Shown here in pieces: positions 10,609-29,129 of a DNA stretch of 64,000 bases; within the stretch, counting starts at the first letter, position 1, and the number at the start of each line of letters is the position of its first letter. The stretch is from Bifidobacterium pullorum DSM 20433. GTDB taxonomy: Bacteria; Actinomycetota; Actinomycetes; Actinomycetales; Bifidobacteriaceae. The stretch spans positions 124,001 through 188,000 of the forward strand of contig NZ_JDUI01000008.1 of the NCBI RefSeq assembly GCF_000771405.1. The letters are read 5' to 3'. Position numbers and translations under genes: made by a program. The notes beneath the pieces were generated by a model. The model searched no databases. It was not told the origin of the DNA and worked only from the letters and a program-made list of their open reading frames with translations.

Positions 10609-10612
<4 letters not shown>

Positions 10613-13600
10613 GATGCTTGCCTCGTTTCGTATACGGTGTTGAGCTGGCCGGCGCAGGCGGGGCAGCTGAGGGTCATGCGGCAATTCTCCATATGGTCGG
10701 ATGTGGGATGGGCAAGCAGCCGGTACGACCGGCTGGCCGCGGCCGCGTAGAACACCCGCGACACCATGTTCAGCGCCCACAACGTCTGGGTGCCACGCAA
10801 CCGCATGAGCTGGTCCCATACCGCAGGGCGTACACCCTCGGGCGGGGTTTCGTGCAGCTCGGGGATATCCAGCTTTATGGGATTCGGATAATGGTTTCGC
10901 TTGACATACGGTTCCGTGGTCCACCCCCCGTTACACAGCAATGCCGGCTGGTGGAGGCCCTCCACCTCATAGCTCTTAGCCGGACCATCGTGCTCCTTGA
11001 CGAAGAACAGTCCGCTTTGCGCGATGTACGGCATCCGCTGGGACGGTCCGGTGCAGCCCCGATCCTCGGGGAACGCCAGACCGAGCTGATAGCAGACCAG
11101 CTGCAGATTGTTGAAGTTCCATGCGACGGAGTGCGTATTCCCCGTTTTGTAATCGATGAGCCGCACTGCTTCGCGCCCGTCCTTAAGCCGGCGATGTTCG
11201 AGCCGGTCGATTCTGCCGGATAGCCGGATCGTCAAATCGTCCCGCATGCCTTCGGGCCACCCGCCGACCATCATGCCCATCACGGCCAGCAGCTCGTCAC
11301 GCGTCATCGGTTCGATGCCCAGTATGGCGTTATAGGCGGCCAGGATGTCGTCGGCGTTGAACCGGGCGGCGAAACCGACTTCGCATTCCACGCGCTCCAA
11401 CTCGCCGATGGAAAAGTGTTTGGCGTTGCTGAACGGATACGCGCTGTCGCACCCGTTGACGAAATACCAGGCGATATGGGTGAGCATGCCTTCGGCCGAC
11501 TGGTCGAGCGTCATCGCCGTATAGCGGTCCGTCGGGGATTCGATGGCCTGCGGATCGCCACGCAGCGAACGGTAGATCGCCATCAGATGTTCCGTGACCG
11601 CCGTGATGCGCGTCTCAGCGCTCTCCCCTGGCACGCCCCCCGGCATGTCGAGGTGTTCCTCGCTGCCACGTTGCGCCACCTCGTGGATGAGGCTGCCGAA
11701 GCCGGCGTGCATACCGCTCGACTGAGGTCCTGAACACTGCTTTTCCAACAGCCAGCAGACAGGACACCCCCAGAGGTCATCAACAGAGGATGGCGACAAT
11801 GCCACGACCGGAGACTGTTCATCCGCCGATGCGGAACGCACCCGCATATCCGCATCCGGGGTACCGGTCCCCGTGTCGCTGCGATTGCCTTGAGCGTCTG
11901 CAGCGTCTTGATCGTTGCCATCGTTGCGACTTGAGATGTCGGTGAAGAACCAGTTCGTGGGATCGGCCGATTCCACCCCATGGTCCGCCAACAACGCGAG
12001 CGCCGCAGCGGCGTCACGGCCTTCGGTTGAATCGGCGCCGCGGCAGGCCAGGGCGATGCGTGCGGCGGTCACCAGCCCGCGAGGGTCGGCGTCAAGTCCC
12101 AGTCGGGAGTCTGCGCTATCGCCATCATCCGTCGCTGCGTTGCCGGGGTGAGCGAACACCACGTCGTCACGCTTGCGGGTGAAGCGTTCCGGCAGATACC
12201 CGTACAGGAAGTCCGATGGCGCGAGATCCTCGTTCCATGTCGCGCTGATGGACAGCGTCTCGTCGGCGCGCGTCACCGCCACGAGCAGATTCTTCTTCTC
12301 GCTGGACAGCACGGCCGCCAGGCGGGGGTCGTATCCCGCCGGCGCGGAGCCACCCACCTGCCCGTGCAGCATGAGGTCCGCCAGATCCTCGCCGCCGAAC
12401 AGCGTGCCGCGTTCCGCGAGATTCGGCCAGACATCCTGCTGGACCGCGGGCAGCCACACATACCGCCAATGGTTTCCGGCCGCACCGGCCGGGGTGGTCA
12501 GCGTCACGGCCTGTTCGACCGGTCCGACGTGCGCCAGCGAATCCGCTTCGATCTGCATCGAACGGACCTGATCCATGAACGAGACGATGTCCTCGCCCGC
12601 CATGCCATTCGAGGCGAGCTGAAACAGCCGCATCGCAGCGTCAAGCCGGTCGTTGGCCGCGCGCCCCTCCGCATCGTTCCGCAATGCGGCGCGCTGCCAG
12701 ACACGAGCCACACCGGTTTCATCCCAGGCCAACGCCAAGGTGTATTGGGCCTCATGGCTGGCCAACCTGTCGATGCCGCCCGCCACACGACCGACCATGT
12801 CCCAGAGCCTTTGGAATGCGACGCACTGCGGGTCACGCCCCAGAATCGCGCCAAGGGACTCCAGTACGGGTGCCGCGGGGGCTTCGGGCGAATCGAACGC
12901 CAACATCAGATACATCGCCCGCTGCCCAAAGGGAAGATCATCCTCTGCGGACGTGCCCGTCAGCACGGTATCGTCCACCAATACCTCGGTCGCGCCCTGC
13001 GCGCCCCGGCGGCGTTCGTTCACCGCGTCACGGTAATGCTCCCATCGGTCGATGAGCTGGGCGAGATGCCGACCATCGCTCTCGTCCGCGCCATTCCCTT
13101 CGCGTGCGCCCTCACGCCCATCGCCGTTGCCATCGGGGGCGTGCGAGCCCTCCCGGATGACCGCGGTCAATGATTCGAGCGCGCCCATTGCGGATTCCAC
13201 CGGTTCCAATCGTGCAGGCCTGCCCTCTCCTGCCTGCGCTCCCGCGGTGATCAACGGGCAGGACATCAACGTATTCACCCGCGCCCGGACGTAGGCGGCC
13301 AGCGATTCCCAAGGCAGATCCACGGCATCGATGCCGCGACGGCGTAGCAGGGCAAGCTCGATCAGACTGAACAATCCCTGAACGAACGGCTCCTCCCTTA
13401 ACGGGCGGGTCACCGACGAATACCGGACCGGCACCCCGTCCCGGCGCAGCCGTTCGCCGAACGCGCGCACCGTGGCGTTGTCATGGGCGATAATCGCCAT
13501 GTCATTCCATGCGACATGCTCATCCAGATGCCGGCGCTTCATGCGCCACACCACATCATCCATCTCCTCGCGAGGCGATTGGTACAACGCCGTGCACACC

Positions 13601-14826
13601 GTGCCATCACCAGGCACGGAATCTCCGGACTGTCCCGGCAAGCCCTCCAGCCTTCGGATGGGCAGACACCCCGGATACTGCGGCAGCTTGCCGGGACGCT
13701 GAGCGATCGGCATATCGTCCGGCTCCGGAGACGGAATCGACAGCGAGACGCGCGCCGCCACCACATCCCGATAGGCCGGAGCGCCGGACTCCCCCGTACC
13801 AGCCGCTGGCATGCGCAACAACATCGCATGCAACGGCCCACGCACCGCGCGGCCCATCAGATACTCCGGGTAGGAGCCTCGGAACGTCTGCACGGCCTCG
13901 TCCGGATTCCCGACCAGCACCAGCCGCACGCCGACAGACGCCAGCGCCTCGAGGAACCGCAACCCAGCCAGCGTGGCGTCGTGGAAGTCATCCACCACCA
14001 GCACCGAAGGCACGGTCTGCGCCTGCAGCCGCACCTCCCCGTCCCGCACGCGGTTGAGTACCGCAGCCGCCTCAACCAGCAGACGCGAGGCATCCAGACG
14101 GTATTCCCCCGGATACGCGCGTTCGATGGCCTGCACATACTCGCGCCGCAAGGCGAACGCCAACCGCCACTGCACCCTGATACGGTCGGCGTTCCGCCCG
14201 GCACCGCCCAGTCCCGCCAGATACTCGTCTTCATGGGCGAACGATGCGCCCAACTCGTTGATGCGGGCCAGCATATCCCGCAATTGGTCAACGAATGATG
14301 ACGACACCCCGCGCTCGAACATGGCGGCCGTGGTCGCATCATCCGTCTGCTCCTGTGCGGGTGCCACAGCTTCGGACCAGTGGTCGTCAGCGAAATACTC
14401 CCGCAGCAGCAGGCAGGTATCGCACAGATCCCCGGTGGCGGCATGACCGAGATGCTGTGCCATCACCCGACGCAGCAGGGCATCCTGCTCGGCGCCGTTC
14501 AACAGGCGGGGCGCAGGCAGGTCATCATACCGACGGGCATCGGCGATGACCGCGAAGGCCAGCGCGGACAGCGTCGTCACCGGACGGGCCCTCATCGATG
14601 CACCGATGCGGCGAATCGCGAGATTGCCCAGCCTGTCCGCCGCCACGCGTCCGGACACCGTCATCATGGCACCGATGCCATGACCGCCTTCCAGCACCCG
14701 CATCATCGTCTCGAACGCGAACTCCGTCTTGCCGCACCGCGGAGGCCCCACCACCAGCAGCGCGGTGGGTTCGCCGTCCCCAATCAGCGCGTCGAACGCC
14801 TGCCATAGTTCCTGTGTCCCAGTCAT
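10609..14826 (-). CDS. adnA: AdnA-like helicase-nuclease subunit
   Basis: Predicted partner of the downstream AdnB-like protein in break resection. The protein has 1405 residues. Walker A GPPRCGKT is at 27-34, a Walker B-like VVDDFHD near 279 and motif VI-like VAVTRAD. The C-terminal RecB-family nuclease has GSLIHE, GRIDRL and LIDYKTG near 1225. Cysteines in GCPVCW near 1020 and C-x5-C-x2-C at 1382-1391 bracket the nuclease, recalling the Fe-S ligands of AddB and Cas4 but with reversed spacing in the second part. The ATG at 14826 has no Shine-Dalgarno. TAGGCT six bases upstream could be a -10 box giving a leaderless transcript, and a 22-bp palindrome lies at the -35 position. Its stop overlaps the adnB start. 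Confidence 0.85.
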
Positions 14827-14971: not shown

Positions 14972-16039
14972 CTACGGCTCCATCGCCTCCCACACCACGC
15001 CGGACAATTCACGGATCCCGGCCTGCGCCGTCTCCGAATCGGGGACATCCTCGGTCAGCACCGTCAACACATAATCGCCTTCGGTGGCGGTGCCGTCGAT
15101 CGCGGCGGAGGTGTCGGCGGACGCGAACACGATCGCCGCATCGTTCTCCACGCCGTCGATCTCGCCGGTTTTGTTGGCCGTCACCGTCCCTTCGGGCACG
15201 CCGCCGGGAATCTTGGTCACTCTGGTCTGTGTCAGCAGCAGGTCGAGCATGCTTCTGCTCGCGTCTTCGCTGACCAGTTCCCCGCGATACACGGCGGCCA
15301 TGAACCGGCCGCAGTCCTCGGCGCTGGTCCGTTTCCGCGACGGGTCGCCGCTGATATCGCCGAGGTACTGGGTGATGAACGAGTCCTGGAACCCGTAGCG
15401 TTTCGCGGTATCGTTGACGATCGCGAAACCGGTGTCGCCGTCACCTCCGCCGATGATGTCCACCAGCGTGTTCGTGGCTTCATTGGAGCTGACGGTGATC
15501 ATCTGCCGCAGCAGTTCGTCGATGGTCTCGTCCTCGGCGAGTGCCCCGTCATGAATCCGCTGATAGACGGCCAGCATGACATACAGCTTGATCGCCGACG
15601 CCGAATAGCCCTGATGGTTGTTAATCGTCAACGATGCGCCGGTGGCCAGATCCTGGCAGTACACCTGCCAGTTGCCCGAATACCCGGCGATCAGCGTCTC
15701 CAATTCGTCACGCAGCGCATCCATCCGGAGCTGTACGAGTCGACCGGCGTCCGGATCCGGTACCGCTTGCCGCTGCATGGCATCATGTTCTGGCGTGGCA
15801 TCGGCCTCTTCCGCAGCGACCGGCCGCTCCGGCACCCCGCTGTCGCTCGGCATGCCACGCCATGCCATCACACCGATGCCGCCTGCGGCGACCAACGCCA
15901 CAGCCACGGCAGCCGCCACGATGGCGACCGTTGTCCCCCGCACGCGCGCCGATGCGTGCTTCGCCGCACCGGTCCGGGAGGAACCGGCCCCGGCAGTCCG
16001 GTCGCCGTCCGAATCCGAAGCGCTCCGCCCAGCCGTCAT
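14972..16039 (-). CDS. Membrane-anchored beta-lactamase-fold serine hydrolase
   Basis: Class A beta-lactamase/penicillin-interacting fold placed outside the membrane. The protein has 355 residues: a short basic cytoplasmic tail, one transmembrane segment at 36-60, a linker, then the catalytic domain. All three motifs of active-site serine penicillin-recognising enzymes are present: SAIK at 148-151, SSN at 184-186 and KTG at 290-292. It could be a DD-peptidase-like enzyme, an esterase or a beta-lactam-binding sensor; sequence alone does not decide. The start overlaps the stop of the preceding gene by ATGA, making it the last cistron of a six-gene operon. The preceding gene encodes a degenerate relative of the same fold, suggesting duplication and functional split. 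Confidence 0.8.
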   Translation of the reverse strand: MTAGRSASDSDGDRTAGAGSSRTGAAKHASARVRGTTVAIVAAAVAVALVAAGGIGVMAWRGMPSDSGVPERPVAAEEADATPEHDAMQRQAVPDPDAGRLVQLRMDALRDELETLIAGYSGNWQVYCQDLATGASLTINNHQGYSASAIKLYVMLAVYQRIHDGALAEDETIDELLRQMITVSSNEATNTLVDIIGGGDGDTGFAIVNDTAKRYGFQDSFITQYLGDISGDPSRKRTSAEDCGRFMAAVYRGELVSEDASRSMLDLLLTQTRVTKIPGGVPEGTVTANKTGEIDGVENDAAIVFASADTSAAIDGTATEGDYVLTVLTEDVPDSETAQAGIRELSGVVWEAMEP

Positions 16040-17277
16040 TGGTCGGTGCCTTCGAACATCGTGTCCCAGACCGTCGCCAACATCTGCGAGGTCAGGTCGG
16101 CGGCCTGCTCCTGGCCCATGCCTTCGGTCATGACGGCAACACCGACCTTGGAGCGGCCATCGGAGATCACGACGAAATAGTTGTAGGAGTCCTGAATGCC
16201 CATACCGCGGTGGGCGTGCACCGTGGCGCCTTCCGGTACGTCCACGCCTTCGGAGGCGATGTCGAAGGACATCAGCTCGTCCGCGCCGTCGGCCGCGATC
16301 TGAGACAGCATGCGCGCCGCGTCATCCGATGAGGCGTAGTTCTCGTATCCGTTCTCCGAAGCGGCCACATCACCGTATTTACGTTCGAAACGGCTGGTGG
16401 TGTACTGATTGTCCGACAGCCATGAATCGACCGCATCCACGCCGCCGAGCGAATCGATGACTAGGTTGGCGGCCTCATTGTCCATCGAACGCATCATCTC
16501 GCCCGCCGCATCGCTGGGCTGCCCCTCATGGGCGTCGTAATAGGCCAGGTACACCGGCAGATACAGGCCGGCCGACACCATCATGGTCGAGGCGTTCGAC
16601 GATGAGTAGCTGCGCAGGCCGTCCTCGGTCATCACCGACACGGCCACATCGGTGGTCGAGAACGCATCGACGATGCGATCGGTGGATTCCTGGTCCAGCG
16701 TGCGCGCCGACAACCCCTGCTCATCCTCGTCGGGATCCTGTTCCTCGGACGCTTCGGTGTCCCGATCGTCGGATTCGTCGTCCGGAACCGTCTGCCCATT
16801 GGAGGACGACGGTCCCTGCGGCGCGGACGTGCCGCCATCCGACGGGTTGTTCCGTGTCGCCAGCGTCACACCGGCGATGACCAAAGCCACGACCACCAGC
16901 ACCGCCGCGATGATGATCGCGATCCGTCCCTTGCCGTGTCGCCCCGCGGCCTGCCCCGACGCCTGTCCGGGAACCGGTCCGAATCCCGGACCGGACGCCT
17001 GTCCGGGATAATGCTGCGGCTGCACCGGGGGCATCATCATCGTCGGCGCCTCCATGGAGGCAGGCGCAGCCGATTCGGGAACCACAGGGGCCGGTGAGGC
17101 CGATTCGGGAACCACGGGGGCAGGCGAGGCCGCCGCAGGTGCGGCCGGGCCAGGCACCGCCTGCGCCGGCGCAGCCGATTCGGGCGCACCCTGGGCGGGG
17201 GCCGTCAACGGCGCGCCGCACGAGATGCAGAACCGGAAGCCCTCGTCATTGGCATTGCCGCATCGCCCACAGATCAT
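16036..17277 (-). CDS. Zinc-ribbon membrane protein with degenerate beta-lactamase-fold domain
   Basis: Function unknown. An N-terminal zinc ribbon uses Cys3, Cys6, Cys17 and Cys20. A Pro/Ala-rich linker with duplicated SPAPVVPESA follows, then a transmembrane helix at about 118-141, an acidic linker and an extracellular domain. That domain aligns by eye with the serine hydrolase encoded next, but its motifs are altered: SAGL at 235-238 instead of SxxK, MDN at 265-267 instead of SxN and HRG at 356-358 instead of KTG. It is therefore likely a ligand-binding or regulatory pseudoenzyme. The chosen ATG at 17277 has GGAGG five bases upstream; in-frame ATGs at 17280 and 17289 are possible. The 3' end overlaps the next gene by four bases. 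Confidence 0.72.
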   Translation of the reverse strand: MICGRCGNANDEGFRFCISCGAPLTAPAQGAPESAAPAQAVPGPAAPAAASPAPVVPESASPAPVVPESAAPASMEAPTMMMPPVQPQHYPGQASGPGFGPVPGQASGQAAGRHGKGRIAIIIAAVLVVVALVIAGVTLATRNNPSDGGTSAPQGPSSSNGQTVPDDESDDRDTEASEEQDPDEDEQGLSARTLDQESTDRIVDAFSTTDVAVSVMTEDGLRSYSSSNASTMMVSAGLYLPVYLAYYDAHEGQPSDAAGEMMRSMDNEAANLVIDSLGGVDAVDSWLSDNQYTTSRFERKYGDVAASENGYENYASSDDAARMLSQIAADGADELMSFDIASEGVDVPEGATVHAHRGMGIQDSYNYFVVISDGRSKVGVAVMTEGMGQEQAADLTSQMLATVWDTMFEGTDQ

Positions 17278-18947
17278 CATGTCCTCCATTCGTCGTCCTG
17301 AACGTATCCATTATCGACCATGCCGCCCGCCGCCGCATCGACACGTCGCCCGGGACTCGTGTCGGCGCGGACGAGACCATGTTCCGCCCATGCCGCCAAT
17401 GTCGCCGCGTCGGCTGACCGCAGTGCGGTGAAACGCAGCGTATTGATTCCGTTGGATACGAACAGCGGCAGCGTCAGGCTTTCCACACCACGCCGTTGAC
17501 GCCACGGCGTGGTGGACCGTTCCACCGACTGGATGCGGGAACGCCGCGTGAATACCGTGAACAATGTCAGCATCGTCGCCCCGGCGGCGACAATGCGCTT
17601 GCCGTCCGGCAGCATGTATCCTTCCGCCGCGGCCTTCAGGCATCGGCACAAGCCCCACCAGACCATCAACGCCGCAGGTGCCAGCATCCACAGCCAGGCC
17701 ATGGCGTCGCCGGACGCCAACGCCCAGATCGCGGCACCGACCATACCGATTGTGGACACCGCCAGCAGAGTGAACAGGTAGTAGCGAAGCAGCCCCCGGC
17801 CGGTTCTCCGCATCCGCGGCGGGACCAGTTCCCATTCGGGCAGCATGCGTTGCAGCACGGCGTATACGCGATCGTCGCCGATGACCGGCAGCACATCGGC
17901 ACCCGTGGAATCGGCGTCCTCCCCTTCCGCGGTGGCGACCGCCCCCAATCCCAACCGGACCGAGCACAGGTGCAGGGCACGGCGTATCAGCGTGCGACGG
18001 ATGGCCACGGTTTGGATGCGGTCGACGGCGATGGTGGTGATCCTGCGCGTGAATGCGCCGCGCACCACGACCAGATCGCCACCGCGACGCCACACCTCGA
18101 ACCCGTGGAAGCGCAGCAGGGATCCGATGATGCTGGCGCCGACGAGCACCGCGAACACGACGGCCACCGTTCCGATGAACGCGACCACGCTGCCGGTGGC
18201 GAATCGAACGACCGAATCCTGGGCGTTGTCCATCATGGCTTCGGGCACCACGTCGCGCAGCTGTTCGATGAAGCCGTAGACCACGATCAGCGCGGCGAAC
18301 AATCCCAGATCGGTGACGGCGAACAGCAGGATATCCCTCACGGAGGCACGAAACACCAATTCGCCTTCGATAACGGGCCGCCCGCCCGGCACCTGCACCT
18401 CATCCTCGGCCGCCGCCGCGGGCACGGGCCCCGCGCACCAGCCTTGGCCTCCCGTTTCTCGTGTTCCCGCCGCCACCGCAGGCGCGGGACCCGCGGGCGT
18501 CCCACTCGCCTGCCTGGCAACCTCAAGTTCCAACTGCACGCTTGAGGGAACGCCTCTGAGCGTTATGCCCGATTCCCCTCCGGCGGCCGTGATGTCCAGG
18601 GTCACGACCTGGAACGGCCGCATATAGATCGGCGAACTGCTGGATATCGCGTGGATGTGGTCGTAGGAGATCGTCGTCCGCTTGCGGTTGAGCATCCCGG
18701 AGCGTTGGGTCACACCGTTTTCGTCCAGACGATACCTGGTGGTCAGCCATCGCAGCACCGGGAACACGAGCATGCACGCCACCAGCAGCGCGATGACCAC
18801 GCCGATGATCGTCAGGACAATCGGCGCATCACGATTCGGCAGCGCGATGGCCAGCATGGCGAGTATCAGCGCGACGGTATCCTTCACCGAATCGATCAGC
18901 GCGGCCACCAGTGCAACCGGATGCGATCGGCGCCACGCCGTGTTCAC
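17277..18947 (-). CDS. Large membrane protein with bacterial PH (DUF304-type) domains
   Basis: Function unknown; it belongs to the YdbT/YdbS-like bPH2 group. The protein has 556 residues. Two transmembrane helices at about 12-36 and 41-65 precede a first PH-like domain (TRYRLDENGVTQRSGMLNRK, then HIHAISSSSPIYMRPF). A Pro/Ala-rich linker, another membrane pair and a second PH-like unit (GFEVWRRGGDLVVVRGAF, then VDRIQTVAIRR) follow. After further helices comes a third partial unit (GVESLTLPLFVSNGINTLRF). The start is a GTG that overlaps the preceding stop as GTGA. Its stop overlaps the next start region, so translation is coupled on both sides. It probably works with the smaller bPH2 protein encoded immediately before it. 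Confidence 0.75.
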   Translation of the reverse strand: MNTAWRRSHPVALVAALIDSVKDTVALILAMLAIALPNRDAPIVLTIIGVVIALLVACMLVFPVLRWLTTRYRLDENGVTQRSGMLNRKRTTISYDHIHAISSSSPIYMRPFQVVTLDITAAGGESGITLRGVPSSVQLELEVARQASGTPAGPAPAVAAGTRETGGQGWCAGPVPAAAAEDEVQVPGGRPVIEGELVFRASVRDILLFAVTDLGLFAALIVVYGFIEQLRDVVPEAMMDNAQDSVVRFATGSVVAFIGTVAVVFAVLVGASIIGSLLRFHGFEVWRRGGDLVVVRGAFTRRITTIAVDRIQTVAIRRTLIRRALHLCSVRLGLGAVATAEGEDADSTGADVLPVIGDDRVYAVLQRMLPEWELVPPRMRRTGRGLLRYYLFTLLAVSTIGMVGAAIWALASGDAMAWLWMLAPAALMVWWGLCRCLKAAAEGYMLPDGKRIVAAGATMLTLFTVFTRRSRIQSVERSTTPWRQRRGVESLTLPLFVSNGINTLRFTALRSADAATLAAWAEHGLVRADTSPGRRVDAAAGGMVDNGYVQDDEWRT

Positions 18948-19459
18948 AGGTCCTCCTTCACCGCGAGCACACGCGAGGTGATCAGCTCCACGATTCGCAT
19001 GGCCTCGGCGTCATCGACTGCCTCGATCTCATGCTCGCCCACCGCGGTGTGCACGCTAACCGATGTCATGGCGAACGAACGGAGTAACGGACCCTGTTTG
19101 GTGTCGACATGCTGGACGCGATTGAACGGCACCGTCACCGATTTGCGGAACAGCCACCCCGTATGCAGTTTCAGATCCCGCTCGCCGATGGAGAATCTGG
19201 TGAACCTGTATGCGTATCGGGTCTGCAGCGGCTGGGTCGCCAGTTCAAGCACCGCCCATGCCGCAATCAGGCCCAGAACAAGCGCCTGCCAGAACCCCCA
19301 CCAGTCGGAGGCGATGAAGATGCTCGCCAAAACCGCGCAGACCAGCACCACCGCCGTGTCCGTCAACACCGACCGCAGCAGCCACACCCGTTTGATGCGT
19401 TCAGGCAAGGAGCGCCATTCCCGTTGGGTGTGCAAACCATCCGTTCCGTTTTCGCCCAT
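18944..19459 (-). CDS. Small bacterial PH-domain membrane protein
   Basis: YdbS-like bPH2 protein of unknown function, about 171 residues. A transmembrane pair (SVLTDTAVVLVCAVLASIFI and WGFWQALVLGLIAAWAVL) is followed by a single PH-like domain with RYAYRFTRFSIGERDLKLHT and VPFNRVQHVDTKQGPLLRSF, the conserved core of the family. In Bacillus-type ydbS-ydbT pairs a small and a large bPH2 protein are encoded side by side, as here. I chose the ATG at 19459, which has GATGAGG just upstream; an ATG three codons earlier at 19468 is also possible. The open frame continues to 19708, but that would overlap the previous gene. The 3' end overlaps the next gene as GTGA. Confidence 0.72.
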   Translation of the reverse strand: MGENGTDGLHTQREWRSLPERIKRVWLLRSVLTDTAVVLVCAVLASIFIASDWWGFWQALVLGLIAAWAVLELATQPLQTRYAYRFTRFSIGERDLKLHTGWLFRKSVTVPFNRVQHVDTKQGPLLRSFAMTSVSVHTAVGEHEIEAVDDAEAMRIVELITSRVLAVKEDL

Positions 19460-19469
19460 ACGCCTCATC

Positions 19470-22400
19470 CTAGCGTTTCCGTATCGGCAATCCCATAAAT
19501 CCCATAGTCCTCCTTCTCGCGTGACGGCCGACGGTCCGCCTGCGCCGGATGGCGGCCACCGCAACGGCACCCGCCGCCGACATGAGGCCGATGACGCACG
19601 GTATGACGGGAAGCCGGCCGTGCTCCGCTGCCGCGCCCACCGTGACCGCATCATAGGTGGCGCTCGTCTGGTTTCCGGCTTTGTCGGCGACCGACACCGT
19701 GACGTCATGGGCGATCCCGTCGGCCTTCAGTTCGTATCGGGGCATCTCGCCGAGTGACGTGTCCCCGTTCCATTCACGGACCACACGCCCGTCGATGCGC
19801 AACTCGGCATGGTCCACACCCAGATTGTCCTTGGCGTCGATGGCGATCGCCCTCCCCGTGCCGCCGGTATACGTCGCCCCGGAGGCCAGGCCGGGCACCG
19901 ACACGGTCGGCACGGTCGAGTCGACGGCGAAGCTCACCTCCGCACTCTCGCGGCGATCCGCGTCCTTGCCTTCCATGGTGTTCTCCGACACGTTGCCCGC
20001 CAAGTCCACGGACCGTACGAGGACCCGGTAGAAGCCGTCGCCGGCGAACCGCCGCGCCGGAATCGTATAGGTGGTTCTGCAGTATCCGTCCTCCCTATCC
20101 GTACGTGTGTCGAATTCGTCGGGCGACAGGGTTTCGGCCCGATCGTTGTGTACCACCGTGATCCGGCTTTCGCCTGACTGAAGGCCGGAGACGTTGAATT
20201 CCCGAATCTCCACATCCCGCGCCTGCGACAGGTAGGTGCCACGCAGCTGCCGTGTCCCTTCGTCGAACGCGTAGGTGGAGCCGAAACGGTTCACGGAGAA
20301 CGTCGTGGAGGCTTCAGTCACATTGCCCGCCGCATCGGTGGCCGTTGCGGTGAGCGTGTAGACGTCGTCGGCTTCGGGGTGCCGCGCGAAATCCCGGAAG
20401 GTCACGTTCATGCCGGCATCCGTATGGGACACGTCATGCGATGGCATGGCATCGCCCTCCAACGCCCCCTGCCGTGCACCGCTGAGACTGACGGCACACC
20501 CCTGTTCGTCGAGATTCGCGTCGGCGCAGCCGATGAGGGGCGCGACCGCCCCCGAGTAGGCGGCGCCTTCCGCCACCCCTTCGAACTCGATGCGCGGCGG
20601 CGTCAGGTCGATGACGAAATGCGCATCGTCCATCAGCGACTCCCCGGACACGCCGGCGGAGACGGCGCTATCATGCAGCCCCCGATAGGAGAACCGCAGC
20701 GCGTATCTCCCTTCCGTCACGACGTCCGCGCCCCGAGCCCGCACCGGCACGGTGATGGTCCATCGTTCGCCGTCGCGGCGCTCCCACCCTTCGCTCTGCA
20801 GCGTCAATGGCGACAACGGCCCCGTGCCGCCTGCGCGTTCCACCGTGCTGCCGGCGAACAGATCGACCGTTTCGGCGCCATCGGCGTTGCGGGCGAGCGG
20901 GAACCATGGATCGCGTACGGTGCAGGTCACGGCCACGTCTGTGCGGAAGTATCCTTGCCGCGCGTTCGACTGCGACCGGGCGGCAGCGGCCGTCAGCGTC
21001 ATCGCGTCGACCTGCGCGGGCCCGCCGGCGATGATGGCCAACGCGGAGGCGTCCTCGTCGCCCAGCAGCGCCCGCACTGTTGATGCGACGGTGTTGCCGG
21101 CATGGTCCACGCCCACGAGCCGCACCGCATTCAGGTCATACAGCCCTTCCTGCGTGAGCGTGATGATGGCCTGACCGGTTTGCGGATCAACGGCAATGGT
21201 CTGTTCCGTGACATCGCCGCCCGGCATGGGTTCGCCCTGCAGGTCGGTCGGCGCGGGGACCGTGACCCGGACCGTGGCCGGGCCGGAAGAAACGCCGCCC
21301 GTATGCTGCGCCGACGGGGCATCCTCGAGCGCGACGGTCAGTCTGGCCTCGCCCACTGCGGCGTGGATGCGCCTGTTGCCATAGGTGGTGTTCGGCTGTG
21401 GTCCGGACGCCTCATGCCAGGCCGGGGCGGTGGCGTCGACGCCGAATTCGATTCCCGCCGGGTCCGCCGTTCCGAACAGATAGCCGATGATCCCCTCCTC
21501 CGGTTGATCGTGGAGCGAATAGGCATACCATCCTTCGGCGTGCGGTTGCGACACCGCCCAGGTAAGTCGTCCGTCATTGCCCGTGCGCAGGTCCGCAATC
21601 GTCACCGCGTCCTGCTCGACGCCGTTGCAGGTCGAGGACACCACCGACGTGGCGGTTTCGCCGCGCTGCTGCAGGATGGCGAGGATTCGGGACAGCAGTC
21701 GATTGCCTGAAACGGTGATGCCGACCTGAGGCGCCTCGGCATGCCAAGCGGCATCGGTGTCACCGGATGGCGCATCGACCGTCAGCGCGGCGGTGATCTT
21801 CGCCGCCGGTTCGCCGATGGTCAACGGATCAGGGAGCGTTCCCGCGCCGACAAGATCGCACATGGCGATCACCGCATCTTCCGCGGTCCGGATGGCGATA
21901 TGGCTGAAGTCATAGCTGCCGGGCGTCCGCAAGGTCACGTTCACCGCCGTGGTTCCGGTCTCTTTGTCCCCAGGCTTCTCCGATTCGGCTGCCGTGATGA
22001 GGTAGTCCCGCGGTTCGAGCGCTCGTTCCGCGCCGGTCAGATCATGATAGGTGCCGCTCAGGCTCAGGGAATCGACGTCGACATCGGACAGAATGACCCG
22101 TACCGCGCGTGACGGGTCATCGCCCCAAGCGATGACCTCATCGCCATCCCGCAGGTCGTACGCATCATTGCCTTGATAAGCGATGTATCCCATGGCCGTT
22201 TCCTTGGTCGGGATCGTCCGGCGTTCCTCCTCATCGGCGGGCGTCTGAGCCGATATGACGACCTGTGATTCGTCCACGGCCGCTTCCGACGCGCAGGCCG
22301 TCGCCACGGCGGAGCCCATCGCCGTCATGGTGACGGCTGCGGACGCCACGGCCACCGACGCGCGTATGGTGCCGCCACGCCGCCTCCTACCCCCACCGAC

Positions 22401-22979
22401 GCCGGAGATCACCGTACCATCGGAGATCACCGTGCTGTCCGATACCACGGTATCGTCGGAAATCACCGCGTGGTCAGAACACACCGCGTGGTCAGAACAC
22501 ACCGTATTGTCAGAGATCACCGTGTGGTCAGAACACACCGTATTGTCAGAGATCACTGTGTGGTCAGAACACACCGTATTGTCAGACGACGCCGTCTGTT
22601 CGAACTTCTTGGGACCAGCGACCGGCGTGCCACCCGTCTCAGGCCTCACCCCCGCCTGCGCCGCCGCCATCGCCTGCTTCCCCGCTGAAGGAACCTGCGC
22701 GGCAGGCCGAACCGCCGACGTCTGCAGCGATCCGCCCGGCCGCGTCACCGATGCGGATGGGCGGCGGCTCCCCCGCACGGCCAGCGCTTCGGCGTACCGC
22801 CACGAGCCCGGTCTGCTCCCACGCAGCCGGGCGATCTGACAGCGGGCCGTCTCCCCGTTCAGTATGCGCCGCACGGCCGGTATGTCGAATCCGTGATGCA
22901 TGGCGATCGCCGTCAGCATCAGCGCCACCGCCAGGACCAACCATCCCGCGGCAACCAGTCGCAACGTTTCATAGCTCAT
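19470..22979 (-). CDS. Large Ig-like membrane protein with hexapeptide repeat segment
   Basis: Function unknown. The protein has 1169 residues. Helix 1 spans about 7-27. A basic, probably cytoplasmic segment of about 170 residues follows and ends in ten hexads of the form [VA]-[CIVS]-S-D-x-[TA] at 131-192. Helix 2 is at about 205-228. A long extracytoplasmic stretch then shows bacterial Ig-like features: DGFYRVLVRSVDLAGNVSE and VYTLTATATDAAGNVTEAST are typical closing strands, and AGN recurs several times. A C-terminal helix near 1125-1143 leads to an Arg-rich tail. It is the second cistron of the kinase operon, 14 bases after the kinase stop, so it is a candidate kinase substrate or receptor partner. 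No LPXTG signal is present. Confidence 0.72.
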   Translation of the reverse strand: MSYETLRLVAAGWLVLAVALMLTAIAMHHGFDIPAVRRILNGETARCQIARLRGSRPGSWRYAEALAVRGSRRPSASVTRPGGSLQTSAVRPAAQVPSAGKQAMAAAQAGVRPETGGTPVAGPKKFEQTASSDNTVCSDHTVISDNTVCSDHTVISDNTVCSDHAVCSDHAVISDDTVVSDSTVISDGTVISGVGGGRRRRGGTIRASVAVASAAVTMTAMGSAVATACASEAAVDESQVVISAQTPADEEERRTIPTKETAMGYIAYQGNDAYDLRDGDEVIAWGDDPSRAVRVILSDVDVDSLSLSGTYHDLTGAERALEPRDYLITAAESEKPGDKETGTTAVNVTLRTPGSYDFSHIAIRTAEDAVIAMCDLVGAGTLPDPLTIGEPAAKITAALTVDAPSGDTDAAWHAEAPQVGITVSGNRLLSRILAILQQRGETATSVVSSTCNGVEQDAVTIADLRTGNDGRLTWAVSQPHAEGWYAYSLHDQPEEGIIGYLFGTADPAGIEFGVDATAPAWHEASGPQPNTTYGNRRIHAAVGEARLTVALEDAPSAQHTGGVSSGPATVRVTVPAPTDLQGEPMPGGDVTEQTIAVDPQTGQAIITLTQEGLYDLNAVRLVGVDHAGNTVASTVRALLGDEDASALAIIAGGPAQVDAMTLTAAAARSQSNARQGYFRTDVAVTCTVRDPWFPLARNADGAETVDLFAGSTVERAGGTGPLSPLTLQSEGWERRDGERWTITVPVRARGADVVTEGRYALRFSYRGLHDSAVSAGVSGESLMDDAHFVIDLTPPRIEFEGVAEGAAYSGAVAPLIGCADANLDEQGCAVSLSGARQGALEGDAMPSHDVSHTDAGMNVTFRDFARHPEADDVYTLTATATDAAGNVTEASTTFSVNRFGSTYAFDEGTRQLRGTYLSQARDVEIREFNVSGLQSGESRITVVHNDRAETLSPDEFDTRTDREDGYCRTTYTIPARRFAGDGFYRVLVRSVDLAGNVSENTMEGKDADRRESAEVSFAVDSTVPTVSVPGLASGATYTGGTGRAIAIDAKDNLGVDHAELRIDGRVVREWNGDTSLGEMPRYELKADGIAHDVTVSVADKAGNQTSATYDAVTVGAAAEHGRLPVIPCVIGLMSAAGAVAVAAIRRRRTVGRHARRRTMGFMGLPIRKR
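22404..22589 (-). repeat. 18-bp-unit tandem repeat encoding SD-x-T hexapeptides
   Basis: About ten 18-base units, several arranged as a 36-base higher-order unit, encode hexads such as VISDNT and VCSDHT in residues 131-192 of the Ig-like protein. Codon use inside the repeat is less GC-rich than in the rest of the gene. The periodicity resembles left-handed beta-helix hexapeptides such as IGDNTV. Confidence 0.85.
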
Positions 22980-22993
22980 CGAATATCCCCCTA

Positions 22994-24688
22994 CTAACTG
23001 TCGGTGAAGGCGCCCTCCACGGCCTGCCTTGCGGCAGCCACGTTCCCCAACGCCCGGTTTCTGGCCGCATCATGCGCCTCATCGGTGGCACCGGTCGTTT
23101 CGGCCAGACGCCCCGCCGCATCGCATAATCCCGCCATGTCTTCCATCGGCACGCCATCCGCGCGGAATTTCCGCGGATAGGCGCGCATGGCGTCCAGCGC
23201 CAGATTCGCGGCCTCCAGACGCATCACTTCGTTGTCCTGTCCCGCCGCCGTGTTGACGAGGCTGCGCAGCATCACGAAATACGGTCCGTATCGGCCCGCA
23301 TCGTCGCCGGAATCGATCAGCGGCACGATCCGCACATTGAATTCGGCGATCCCCGCGTACATGCCGGCCAATTCCGAACGTCCGAACGTCTCGACCCCGG
23401 CGGCGTCCCGCATCCAGGGCGCCGCCGCCCGTATCCGCGTCAGCCGCCGATCCCCGTCGTCTTCGGCATCGGACGAGCCGGACGCATAGTAGTACCAGTA
23501 GAGCCGTCCGGTATCGAAGCACAGTGCCGCCCACGCGGTCTCGTCGGACCGCAGCGCGTCGGCATGGCGGTCCATCAACGCCAGATAGGTGCGTTCCTCA
23601 TCCGCGGAGTACACGCCATCGGCCTCATACCGTTCGATCAGATGCAAATACGGTTCGATTGCGCCGGGCAGAATCCCGGCGGCGCGAGCGCACGCCCGTT
23701 CCGCGGCGTATCGGTCCGGGGCGCGTTCGGCCTGCGTCATCCAATGGGCGTAATCGCCGTCCCTGACGCGGTCGGACGCCAGCAACGTTCCACCGGACAA
23801 GGCCAGGCATGCCGCGGAGGCTGAGACCGTTCCCACGAAGGCACGCCACCGCCGCCGGAGCATGTTCCGTCTGGCCGGCTCATCGTCCAGACTGTGGCCG
23901 AGCGCATAGGCGAATTCGGCGCACGTCCGGTACCGACGATCCGGGTCCGCCGATGTGGCCTTGGCGATGACCCGTTCCAACCCCTCGGACAGGTCCGGTC
24001 TGATGCGGCGGATCGGCACGATGCCATCCCGCGGATGCCTCCCCGTCAACAGGTGGAACAGCGTGGCGCCCAACGCGTGGATGTCGGCCCGCGCGTCCAC
24101 GGTGCCGTCCCGATCGAACTGCTCCGGAGCGCCGTATCCCGGCGTGCCCATGCGCAGACCGTCCCCGAAGGCGGGACGGGCCGTGCCGGCATCACCGGTT
24201 TCGAGGGCGATGCCGAAATCGATGAGTCTGATCGACCCGTCCGGCGTCAGCATGATATTGGACGGCTTCAGATCGCGGTACACCACCATCGGCGTCCGCC
24301 GATGCAGATAGTCCAGCACATCGCACAGTTGGATGCCCCAGTCCACCGCCTGCGCCTCGCTCCGGGGCCCTTCGCGTTCCAGTAGGGCGCGCAGCGTCTC
24401 GCCCTCCACGAAATCCATGACCACGAACACCTCCGAGGCGTCGGCGATCAGGTCGACGATGCGTGGAATGGCGGGATGGTCGAGCCGCGCGATCAGCGCG
24501 GACTCCGCACGCAGACCGCGCATCATCGCGTCATGCCGCGCCGGCGAGCCGACGTCGCGCATCTGCTTGACCGCCCACCGTCTGTTCAACGCCACGTCCA
24601 TCGCCAGATAGACCGTGGCCATGCCTCCGGCACCGATTTGTGCCAGGATGCGGTACCGTCCCCCGATCAGGGCCCCTTCAGCCACCAT
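22994..24688 (-). CDS. Serine/threonine protein kinase with transmembrane and extracellular helical domain
   Basis: Hanks-type receptor-like kinase of 564 residues. The Gly-rich loop IGAGGMATV is at 18-26, ATP-binding Lys41 in WAVKQM, catalytic loop YRDLKPSN at 137-144 (Tyr replaces the usual His of HRD), DFG at 157-159 and the APE-like GAPEQ at 186-190. A transmembrane helix at about 283-305 follows. The outer 260 residues lack PASTA repeats and look all-helical and TPR-like (WAALCFDTGRLYWYYYAS, LEAANLALDAMRAYP). The frame reaches upstream to 24826, but MVAEGALIGGRYRI at 24688 is the natural kinase start, with AAGG upstream. It heads the six-gene envelope operon. Autophosphorylation and targets are inferred, not seen. 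Confidence 0.88.
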   Translation of the reverse strand: MVAEGALIGGRYRILAQIGAGGMATVYLAMDVALNRRWAVKQMRDVGSPARHDAMMRGLRAESALIARLDHPAIPRIVDLIADASEVFVVMDFVEGETLRALLEREGPRSEAQAVDWGIQLCDVLDYLHRRTPMVVYRDLKPSNIMLTPDGSIRLIDFGIALETGDAGTARPAFGDGLRMGTPGYGAPEQFDRDGTVDARADIHALGATLFHLLTGRHPRDGIVPIRRIRPDLSEGLERVIAKATSADPDRRYRTCAEFAYALGHSLDDEPARRNMLRRRWRAFVGTVSASAACLALSGGTLLASDRVRDGDYAHWMTQAERAPDRYAAERACARAAGILPGAIEPYLHLIERYEADGVYSADEERTYLALMDRHADALRSDETAWAALCFDTGRLYWYYYASGSSDAEDDGDRRLTRIRAAAPWMRDAAGVETFGRSELAGMYAGIAEFNVRIVPLIDSGDDAGRYGPYFVMLRSLVNTAAGQDNEVMRLEAANLALDAMRAYPRKFRADGVPMEDMAGLCDAAGRLAETTGATDEAHDAARNRALGNVAAARQAVEGAFTDS

Positions 24689-25085
24689 TGCGAATGCCTT
24701 TCCCCATGCGTTGCCTGCCTCGTGGCTCCACATGGGACCGGCCGAACGCCGGCACCGGCACCATGTCTTTCCCCCTCCCCCAATGTACGGTCCCGTCCGA
24801 CGTCGTGTCAACCGGACGCCGGCCACCGTCCGGGAAACCCCGGCCGTTCAACGCCCCGACGCCGACACGCCGCGTTCCCCTCGCACGTCGGCATCCGGAC
24901 ACCACCCGGGCACCGCCCGGATACCGTTCAGCCCCCCAAAAAACACCCGAAACCACCTGAAGCTTGCCACATACCAGCCAAAACCGCGCCCGCAATACGC
25001 CAAGGGGCGCCTCCCTGCAGGGAGGCGCCCCTTGGTGCAACGGTTCAACGCTCGGCCGTCAACCGGCCGTATGCGTCGGCAGACG
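24689..25085. other. Intergenic region between rpoC and kinase operon
   Basis: 397 bases without a convincing gene. It holds the rpoC 3' palindrome at 25001-25034 and must contain the promoter of the kinase operon. A possible -10-like TACATT can be read on the minus strand near 24785, without a clear -35. The rest is GC-rich single-copy sequence with nothing I recognise. Confidence 0.5.
25001..25034 (-). terminator. 34-bp perfect palindrome downstream of rpoC
   Basis: A perfect inverted repeat with half-site caaggggcgcctccctg lies about 50 bases after the rpoC stop codon. The centre is CTGCAG, so the RNA hairpin would have a very small loop. There is no U-tract on the minus strand. It is most likely the terminator or 3' barrier of the rpoBC transcript. 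Confidence 0.6.

Positions 25086-29129
<4,044 letters not shown>

Follow-up and report, generated by a model that had tools for sequence, protein, structure and literature searches.

A six-gene envelope run downstream of rpoC in Bifidobacterium pullorum that carries type VIId secretion components without an adjacent TsdC motor

A type VIId secretion system (T7SSd) was proposed by Garrett et al. (2024; PMC11217815). Its components are TsdA, a WXG100 protein; TsdC, the ATPase; TsdD, a kinase; TsdH, with one transmembrane (TM) segment and a short cytoplasmic tail; and TsdI, a large immunoglobulin-like (Ig) protein. Here we describe a run of six genes in Bifidobacterium pullorum DSM 20433, located in a stretch of 64,000 nucleotides (contig NZ_JDUI01000008.1, positions 124,001 to 188,000), which is called the window below. 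The kinase, TsdH and TsdI families occur in the run in the same order as in T7SSd, but the run has neither the TsdC motor nor a WXG100 gene, TsdH and TsdI are fused, and four extra envelope genes follow. EssB/YukC of the type VIIb system also combines a kinase-fold inner domain, one TM segment and a helical outer domain (PMC9600267), but EssB is a pseudokinase, whereas the catalytic residues of the window kinase (K41, D139, N144, and D157) are intact. The PASTA kinases (Stk1/PknB) are likewise membrane Ser/Thr kinases; unlike them, the window kinase gave no PASTA match in a Pfam scan of the six proteins. The PFNA cluster, too, has a membrane Ser/Thr kinase beside a large modular surface protein, but its fn3, MoxR, DUF58, and transglutaminase families are absent among the six genes, whose neighbours are rpoC and a helicase/nuclease gene. 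The run and its genes, in order of reading, are as follows (aa, amino acids).

14972-24688, minus strand: the six-gene run, in the order kinase, Ig protein (fusion), PH1, PH2, ZR, BL
22994..24688, minus strand: TsdD-type Ser/Thr kinase, 564 aa; Hanks kinase domain 12-225, weak TM segment near 285-303, helical C-terminal domain predicted to lie outside
19470..22979, minus strand: TsdH-TsdI fusion, 1169 aa; TM1 at 8-26, cytoplasmic loop, signal-peptide-like hydrophobic segment 209-227, Ig ectodomain, TM segment 1126-1144
18944..19468, minus strand: PH1, YdbS-like, 174 aa, two TM segments (at 34 and 59), one bPH_2 domain (PF03703, 61.7 bits); alternative start at 19459
17277..18947, minus strand: PH2, YdbT-like, 556 aa, six hydrophobic segments, two bPH_2 stretches over threshold (PF03703, 101.3 bits)
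16036..17289, minus strand: ZR, 417 aa; cytoplasmic zinc ribbon (PF13240, 28.1 bits), TM segment, extracellular beta-lactamase-fold pseudoenzyme (PF13354, 37.6 bits)
14972..16039, minus strand: BL, TM-anchored PBP-A-like serine peptidase, 355 aa (PF13354, 123.8 bits); S148-A-I-K151, S184-S-N186, K290-T-G, and Leu226 at the Glu166 place

The entire kinase, with its outer domain, can be aligned to 20 kinases encoded beside TsdI homologues (42-70% identity), and its outer domain is still 41-45% identical in Olsenella and Atopobiaceae. By these alignments it is a homologue of TsdD. The model NF033483 scores 216 bits against a cut-off of 450 and covers residues 5-277 only. The outer domain is predicted with a pLDDT of 91.9, and no confident fold match to it was found. 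When the outer domain alone was used for scanning, independently of the Ig match, 80 of 110 confirmed loci were returned, from Bifidobacteriaceae, Olsenella, other Coriobacteriia, Winkia, and Bacillota; within the stretches fetched, some of which end at contig ends, TsdI is matched in 62 of the 80 and TsdC in 32. The family survey, here and below, covers 151 genomes, many of them drafts, with adjacency judged from match positions. In it the outer domain is found in 35 genomes by a profile that includes the window's own row, and 31 of the 35 have a TsdI match at 1e-20 or better. Very divergent TsdD-like kinases are seen in small bifidobacterial genomes (L125, L126, L127 and G067, G073, G133, G141), three of them beside a short TsdI-like protein, with TsdC not nearby.

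Matches to the Ig protein occur in 41 of the 151 family genomes at E 0.001, and in 32 at 1e-20 or better, the weaker ones falling mainly in the repeat region. A kinase homologue lies near the Ig homologue in 32 loci, the window included, all of them chosen through the Ig match. The sequence-only reading of the window had seen here an Ig-like membrane protein. The Ig ectodomain is indeed present (PF19077, 36.5 bits), but the gene codes for more than that: its first 120 or so residues match separate TsdH genes of relatives (e.g., E 1.8e-13 in G119), and TsdI-type identity at the C-terminal end spans 330-400 residues. In the 31 loci other than the window, TsdH is a separate small one-TM gene between the kinase and Ig genes in 24, is fused in one (B. 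pullorum subsp. gallinarum), and is not matched in six. By homology, the Ig gene is a fusion of TsdH and TsdI, two families that are usually separate genes. The fusion is 1169 aa long in the window and 1492 aa in B. pullorum subsp. gallinarum; its TM segments come from hydropathy, and the topology given is the one they imply. Elsewhere, L054 and L055 have TsdI in two or three separate frames, with TsdD, TsdH, and TsdC apparently whole. Two parts of the fusion matter in what follows.

19530..20627, minus strand: conserved TsdI C-terminal region, residues about 785-1150, 32-56% identity in family genomes
22404..22583, minus strand: ten DxTVxS hexapeptides (8 Thr, 2 Ala) in the predicted cytoplasmic loop, residues 133-192, period 6

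A tandem DNA repeat (22446-22586) underlies the hexapeptide array, and B. pullorum subsp. gallinarum has nine similar units in the same six-residue register. In the TsdH tails of many relatives (L045-L057), acidic-flanked TT[VL]L threonine motifs recur in arrays of up to six units (L056). Examples of threonines in an acidic context with hydrophobic flanks are DDAPTVLAG, DEPSTTLLG, and DDESRTILV; the window and B. pullorum subsp. gallinarum carry the mostly Thr-Val hexapeptides of period 6 in their place. In post hoc comparisons, with mixed outcome, the pattern T[VILT][VILM] is enriched in 10 of 21 TsdH tails, the window included, and the acidic pattern in 7 of 21, the window not among them. 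The FHA domains of TsdC keep a phosphothreonine site (PMC11217815), and from this we infer that the TsdH tails may be kinase substrates and FHA ligands.

The relation to TsdC varies among the loci. TsdC adjoins or follows TsdI in 14 of the 32 loci, and the other 18 are without an adjacent TsdC (a 45-bit scrap in L042 is excluded from the count). In L045, for example, a 1523-aa FtsK/SpoIIIE protein is encoded downstream, together with an FHA protein and a WXG100-like protein (26.1 bits, Pfam cut-off 27.3). Homology and gene company identify the kinase and the Ig protein of the window as T7SSd components. Pfam finds among the six genes neither an FtsK-type ATPase with FHA domains (TsdC) nor a WXG100 protein (TsdA). 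In the whole window genome (G000), the 1523-aa TsdC query finds no gene of TsdC size, its sole match lying in a frame of 699-705 aa. That genome has two FtsK-family genes, the small ATPase just mentioned and one that is the cell-division FtsK, so read because it has the FtsK alpha, gamma, and 4TM domains. Among the matches listed, a TsdC match in a frame of at least 1000 aa occurs in 19 of the 35 genomes that have the TsdD outer domain; another 14, G000 included, show one match each, in frames of 609-797 aa. The remaining two, G114 and G119, each have a second FtsK-like match, though that of G114 alone (1635-aa frame) is among those listed. In five other TsdC-less bifidobacterial loci (L039, L040, L042, L043, and L118), TsdI is followed by an FHA protein. 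In L042 and L043 this protein has DUF6382 matches under the cut-off, and in L039, L043, and L118 the next gene encodes a zinc-ribbon-type membrane protein, which in L039 and L043 has no Beta-lactamase2 match. The window genome has four FHA matches outside the run.

The six genes are a real run. Their Pfam domains are protein kinase; Ig-like; one bPH_2; two bPH_2; zinc ribbon with Beta-lactamase2; and Beta-lactamase2. From upstream to downstream, the junctions are +14, +1, -4, -13, and -4 bases; the second would be +10 if PH1 started at 19459, a start preceded by GAGG. B. pullorum subsp. gallinarum (G077; L038 = L130) has the same six genes in the same order, with junctions of -4, +1, -4, -16, and -4, so that four of five agree to within three bases. 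In gene order, the proteins of the two are 70, 54, 83, 70, 70, and 68% identical. By a simple counting method, nonsynonymous divergence (dN, 0.12-0.37) is below synonymous divergence (dS, 0.63-0.87) in every gene, and division of these values gives ratios of about 0.29, 0.46, 0.19, 0.32, 0.25, and 0.29. The conserved order and junctions and the excess of dS over dN exceed what is expected of chance open frames. The run probably forms one transcript. The compact run, with gaps of 14 bases or less or overlaps, the non-PASTA kinase, the two bacterial-PH membrane proteins, and the difference from PASTA loci and the PFNA cluster had all been proposed in the sequence-only reading and agree with the present results. 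What that reading missed, though it had the run and the protein classes, is that the kinase and the Ig protein are, by homology, TsdD and TsdH-TsdI of T7SSd.

The PH genes belong to a kind known elsewhere. YdbS/YdbT and DdE/DdF are, like PH1 and PH2, adjacent pairs of a small two-TM protein with one bPH_2 domain and a large six-TM protein with several (PMC8657885). YdbT has three bPH_2 domains, and PH2 gives two stretches over threshold. The window pair differs in being part of a kinase operon; the run showed no bacteriocin gene, although no search was aimed at one. DdE/DdF are required for export of a leaderless bacteriocin (PMC8657885), and PH proteins are reported to occur in leaderless-bacteriocin clusters in Actinomycetota. 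PH2 homologues, some partial, are present in 41 of the 151 family genomes at E 1e-5, and PH1 lies beside PH2 in all 11 loci fetched for PH2. By position, the pair adjoins the kinase set in two of the 151 genomes only (G000 and G077). It is found without the kinase in G110, where it follows rpoC, and in G094 and G086, where rpoC and addB flank it.

ZR and BL form the third module. In ZR and 26 homologues, the serine of the SxxK site is replaced by Ala in 25 of 27 rows and the lysine by Tyr in all 27; Arg-Gly takes the place of the Lys-Thr of KTG in 25 of 27, which leaves the Asn of SxN as the one motif residue conserved (27/27). ZR is a pseudoenzyme, as judged from the loss of the catalytic lysine, and mostly of the serine too, in the aligned rows; this bears out the zinc-ribbon pseudo-hydrolase proposed earlier. 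In BL and 23 homologues, the Ser and Lys of SxxK, the Ser and Asn of SxN, and KTG are each kept in 24 of 24. The place of Glu166, set by alignment to Tll2115, holds Leu in 17 of the 24 aligned rows, Met in five, Ile in one, and a gap in one, and never Glu. The nearest solved chain to BL is Tll2115 (2j7v, E 8e-14), and the second-best chain differs from it by one letter in the aligned part, Leu to Glu at BL Leu226. We take Tll2115 to be the PBP-A of the study cited next, and the second-best chain to be its Glu mutant. PBP-A has DD-carboxypeptidase and endopeptidase activity, with Leu158 among its active-site residues (PMC11189452). BL shares with PBP-A of Thermosynechococcus the SxxK, SxN, and KTG motifs and the Leu at the Glu166 place, but differs in being paired with an inactive paralogue (ZR) and anchored by a predicted TM segment. 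A classical class A beta-lactamase was considered for BL and rejected, Glu166 being absent (Leu226). The earlier description of an active-looking beta-lactamase-fold hydrolase thus holds for the motifs but not for the class: BL looks like a PBP-A-type serine peptidase, for which DD-peptidase activity is predicted. Labels in the sources mislead on both counts, since "serine hydrolase" homologues of ZR lack the catalytic lysine and mostly the serine, and "beta-lactamase" homologues of BL look like PBP-A. ZR is matched in 39 and BL in 36 of the 151 genomes, and in 25 of the 36 the two are adjacent, with ZR first. Two ZR homologues (P0032 and P0034) have a PASTA domain. A 30-base tandem repeat at 17059-17132 of the window lies in the Pro/Ala-rich linker of ZR, which is shorter in B. 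pullorum subsp. gallinarum.

We give an even chance to the reading that the three modules have been joined as one stand-alone, kinase-controlled system of envelope sensing and protection that works without TsdC. Its basis is the homologies, the gene order, the absence of a TsdC-sized match, the intact residues of the kinase and BL, the lost residues of ZR, and the excess of dS over dN; all functional steps are predictions. Several results weigh against it. The sequence-only reading had named scattering of the six genes in related genomes as a result that would refute it, and this is largely what the neighbourhood search gave: the genes are mostly scattered, and all six, hence the three modules, adjoin in two of the 151 genomes only (the window's and G077). 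The six-gene unit is narrow, and the three modules also occur apart. The run lacks an FHA protein, unlike the five other TsdC-less loci, and a DUF6382 search of the genome came back empty, a weak test since the relatives' own matches fall under the cut-off. In the window loop, the acidic-context threonine motif is not enriched (355 of 1000 shuffles are as high). Finally, the repeat has a weak LpxD match (E 0.0017, 17.4 bits), and its hexapeptide period could instead make a beta-solenoid.

The kinase and fusion might instead belong to a scattered type VII system, working with a small FtsK-type ATPase and a lone WXG100 protein encoded elsewhere. Candidates for both parts exist. The small ATPase of G000 (L109:4607-6706; G000:C12, about 47.6-49.7 kb) has one strong ATPase domain, an FtsK domain 44% identical to the first ATPase domain of TsdC, and the genome's sole WXG100 match is a lone 97-aa protein (L110:6215-6508; G000:C1) next to what inspection suggests is groEL. 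Moreover, a ZR homologue lies 4.1 kb or less from the small ATPase in seven of nine same-contig cases (33 small-ATPase places compared). However, the small ATPase has no FHA match and follows a LytR-CpsA-Psr gene, and its kind is present in most family genomes among the matches listed: the TsdC query matches at least 134 of the 151, mostly in small frames among those matches, as opposed to only 35 with TsdD. Relatives with TsdDHI carry either a TsdC of about 1500 aa or no adjacent TsdC. A scattered system is, in our judgement, unlikely.

The window could also preserve an original state, in which kinase-TsdH-TsdI was an old free-standing sensor, adopted later by type VIId secretion and in the window supplemented with the PH and ZR-BL pairs. 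The 18 of 32 TsdD loci without an adjacent TsdC agree with such an origin, as do the ten genomes behind them that show one small match to the TsdC query, among the matches listed. The genome site and the TsdD tree speak otherwise. In the window, B. pullorum subsp. gallinarum, B. saguinibicoloris, B. scaligerum, and B. olomucense, TsdD is found no more than 3.5 kb downstream of rpoC. The same is true of B. colobi (L131) and Atopobiaceae bacterium UBA1367 (L150), which represent two different families and have TsdD, TsdI, and a following TsdC at this rpoC site. The tree (43 rows, unrooted) joins the window with B. pullorum subsp. gallinarum (100/100) and places both in a group of 14 rows (96/96) in which TsdC-linked and TsdC-less loci are mixed and the inner forks are not settled. 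The TsdC-linked members of this group are Bombiscardovia, the asteroides group, Winkia, and B. colobi, the last nested among TsdC-less relatives. These relationships fit repeated loss of the TsdC link, and the old-sensor origin appears improbable. Least of all do we favour a decaying type VIId remnant beside unrelated envelope genes with no joint function, which is very unlikely: TsdC is missing and the fusion is the shorter of the two compared and has the highest dN/dS of the six, but all six frames are open in both B. pullorum genomes at ratios of about 0.2-0.46, four of the five junctions are kept, and the kinase residues are intact.

If the three modules do form a stand-alone sensing and protection system, it might work as follows. 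The Ig ectodomain and the helical outer domain of the kinase would contact wall or membrane damage outside, whereupon the kinase would phosphorylate the DxTVxS threonines of the fusion's cytoplasmic loop. The phosphorylated loop would be bound by a phosphothreonine reader, for which ZR, a PH protein, and the FHA proteins encoded outside the run are candidates. The outputs would be the PH pair, related to proteins that export membrane-active peptides or protect against them, and the ZR-BL pair, which would cut back the stem peptides of peptidoglycan. Of these we prefer protection from membrane-active peptides because of the bacteriocin export by DdE/DdF and the PH proteins of the Actinomycetota clusters. 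A link from the kinase to the PH and zinc-ribbon proteins, as the sequence-only reading also supposed, would be part of this scheme. More tentatively, and rather doubtfully, one may picture a secretion machine turned receptor: the kinase and its wall-spanning Ig arm would have been freed from the motor, the arm fused to its own phosphorylation tail, and the phospho-switch put in charge of the PH pair, for defence against peptides, and of a peptidase that trims the wall and is held by its dead twin.

A natural motor-less version lets the kinase and the Ig arm be studied alone, in a genus of gut commensals, and the threonine arrays in the TsdH tails of many relatives make the kinase-substrate question biochemically testable. 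A literature search found no published experiment on TsdD, TsdH, or TsdI, and of the papers listed only the proposing one uses the name T7SSd. No such operon appears in the titles and opening parts of abstracts covered by the search, which left most subscription papers outside, so that absence is not proven.

The surroundings of the run contain the following features.

25086..29129, minus strand: rpoC, the upstream neighbour (Pfam RNA_pol_Rpb1 domains)
25000..25035, minus strand: perfect 36-base GC-rich palindrome, a candidate terminator after rpoC, missed by a T-run terminator scan
24782..24811, minus strand: candidate sigma-70-type promoter, TTGACA-18-TACATT, a consensus match only
10609..14826, minus strand: UvrD-helicase/PD-(D/E)XK nuclease gene, the downstream neighbour (domain matches), presumably addB

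The kinase start lies 397 bases past rpoC. The candidate promoter is weak, since the stretch holds four promoter-like sites where 1.5 are expected. Elsewhere in the genome, a seventh kinase-family match (G000:C36:127044-127466) is a partial domain in a 556-aa frame.

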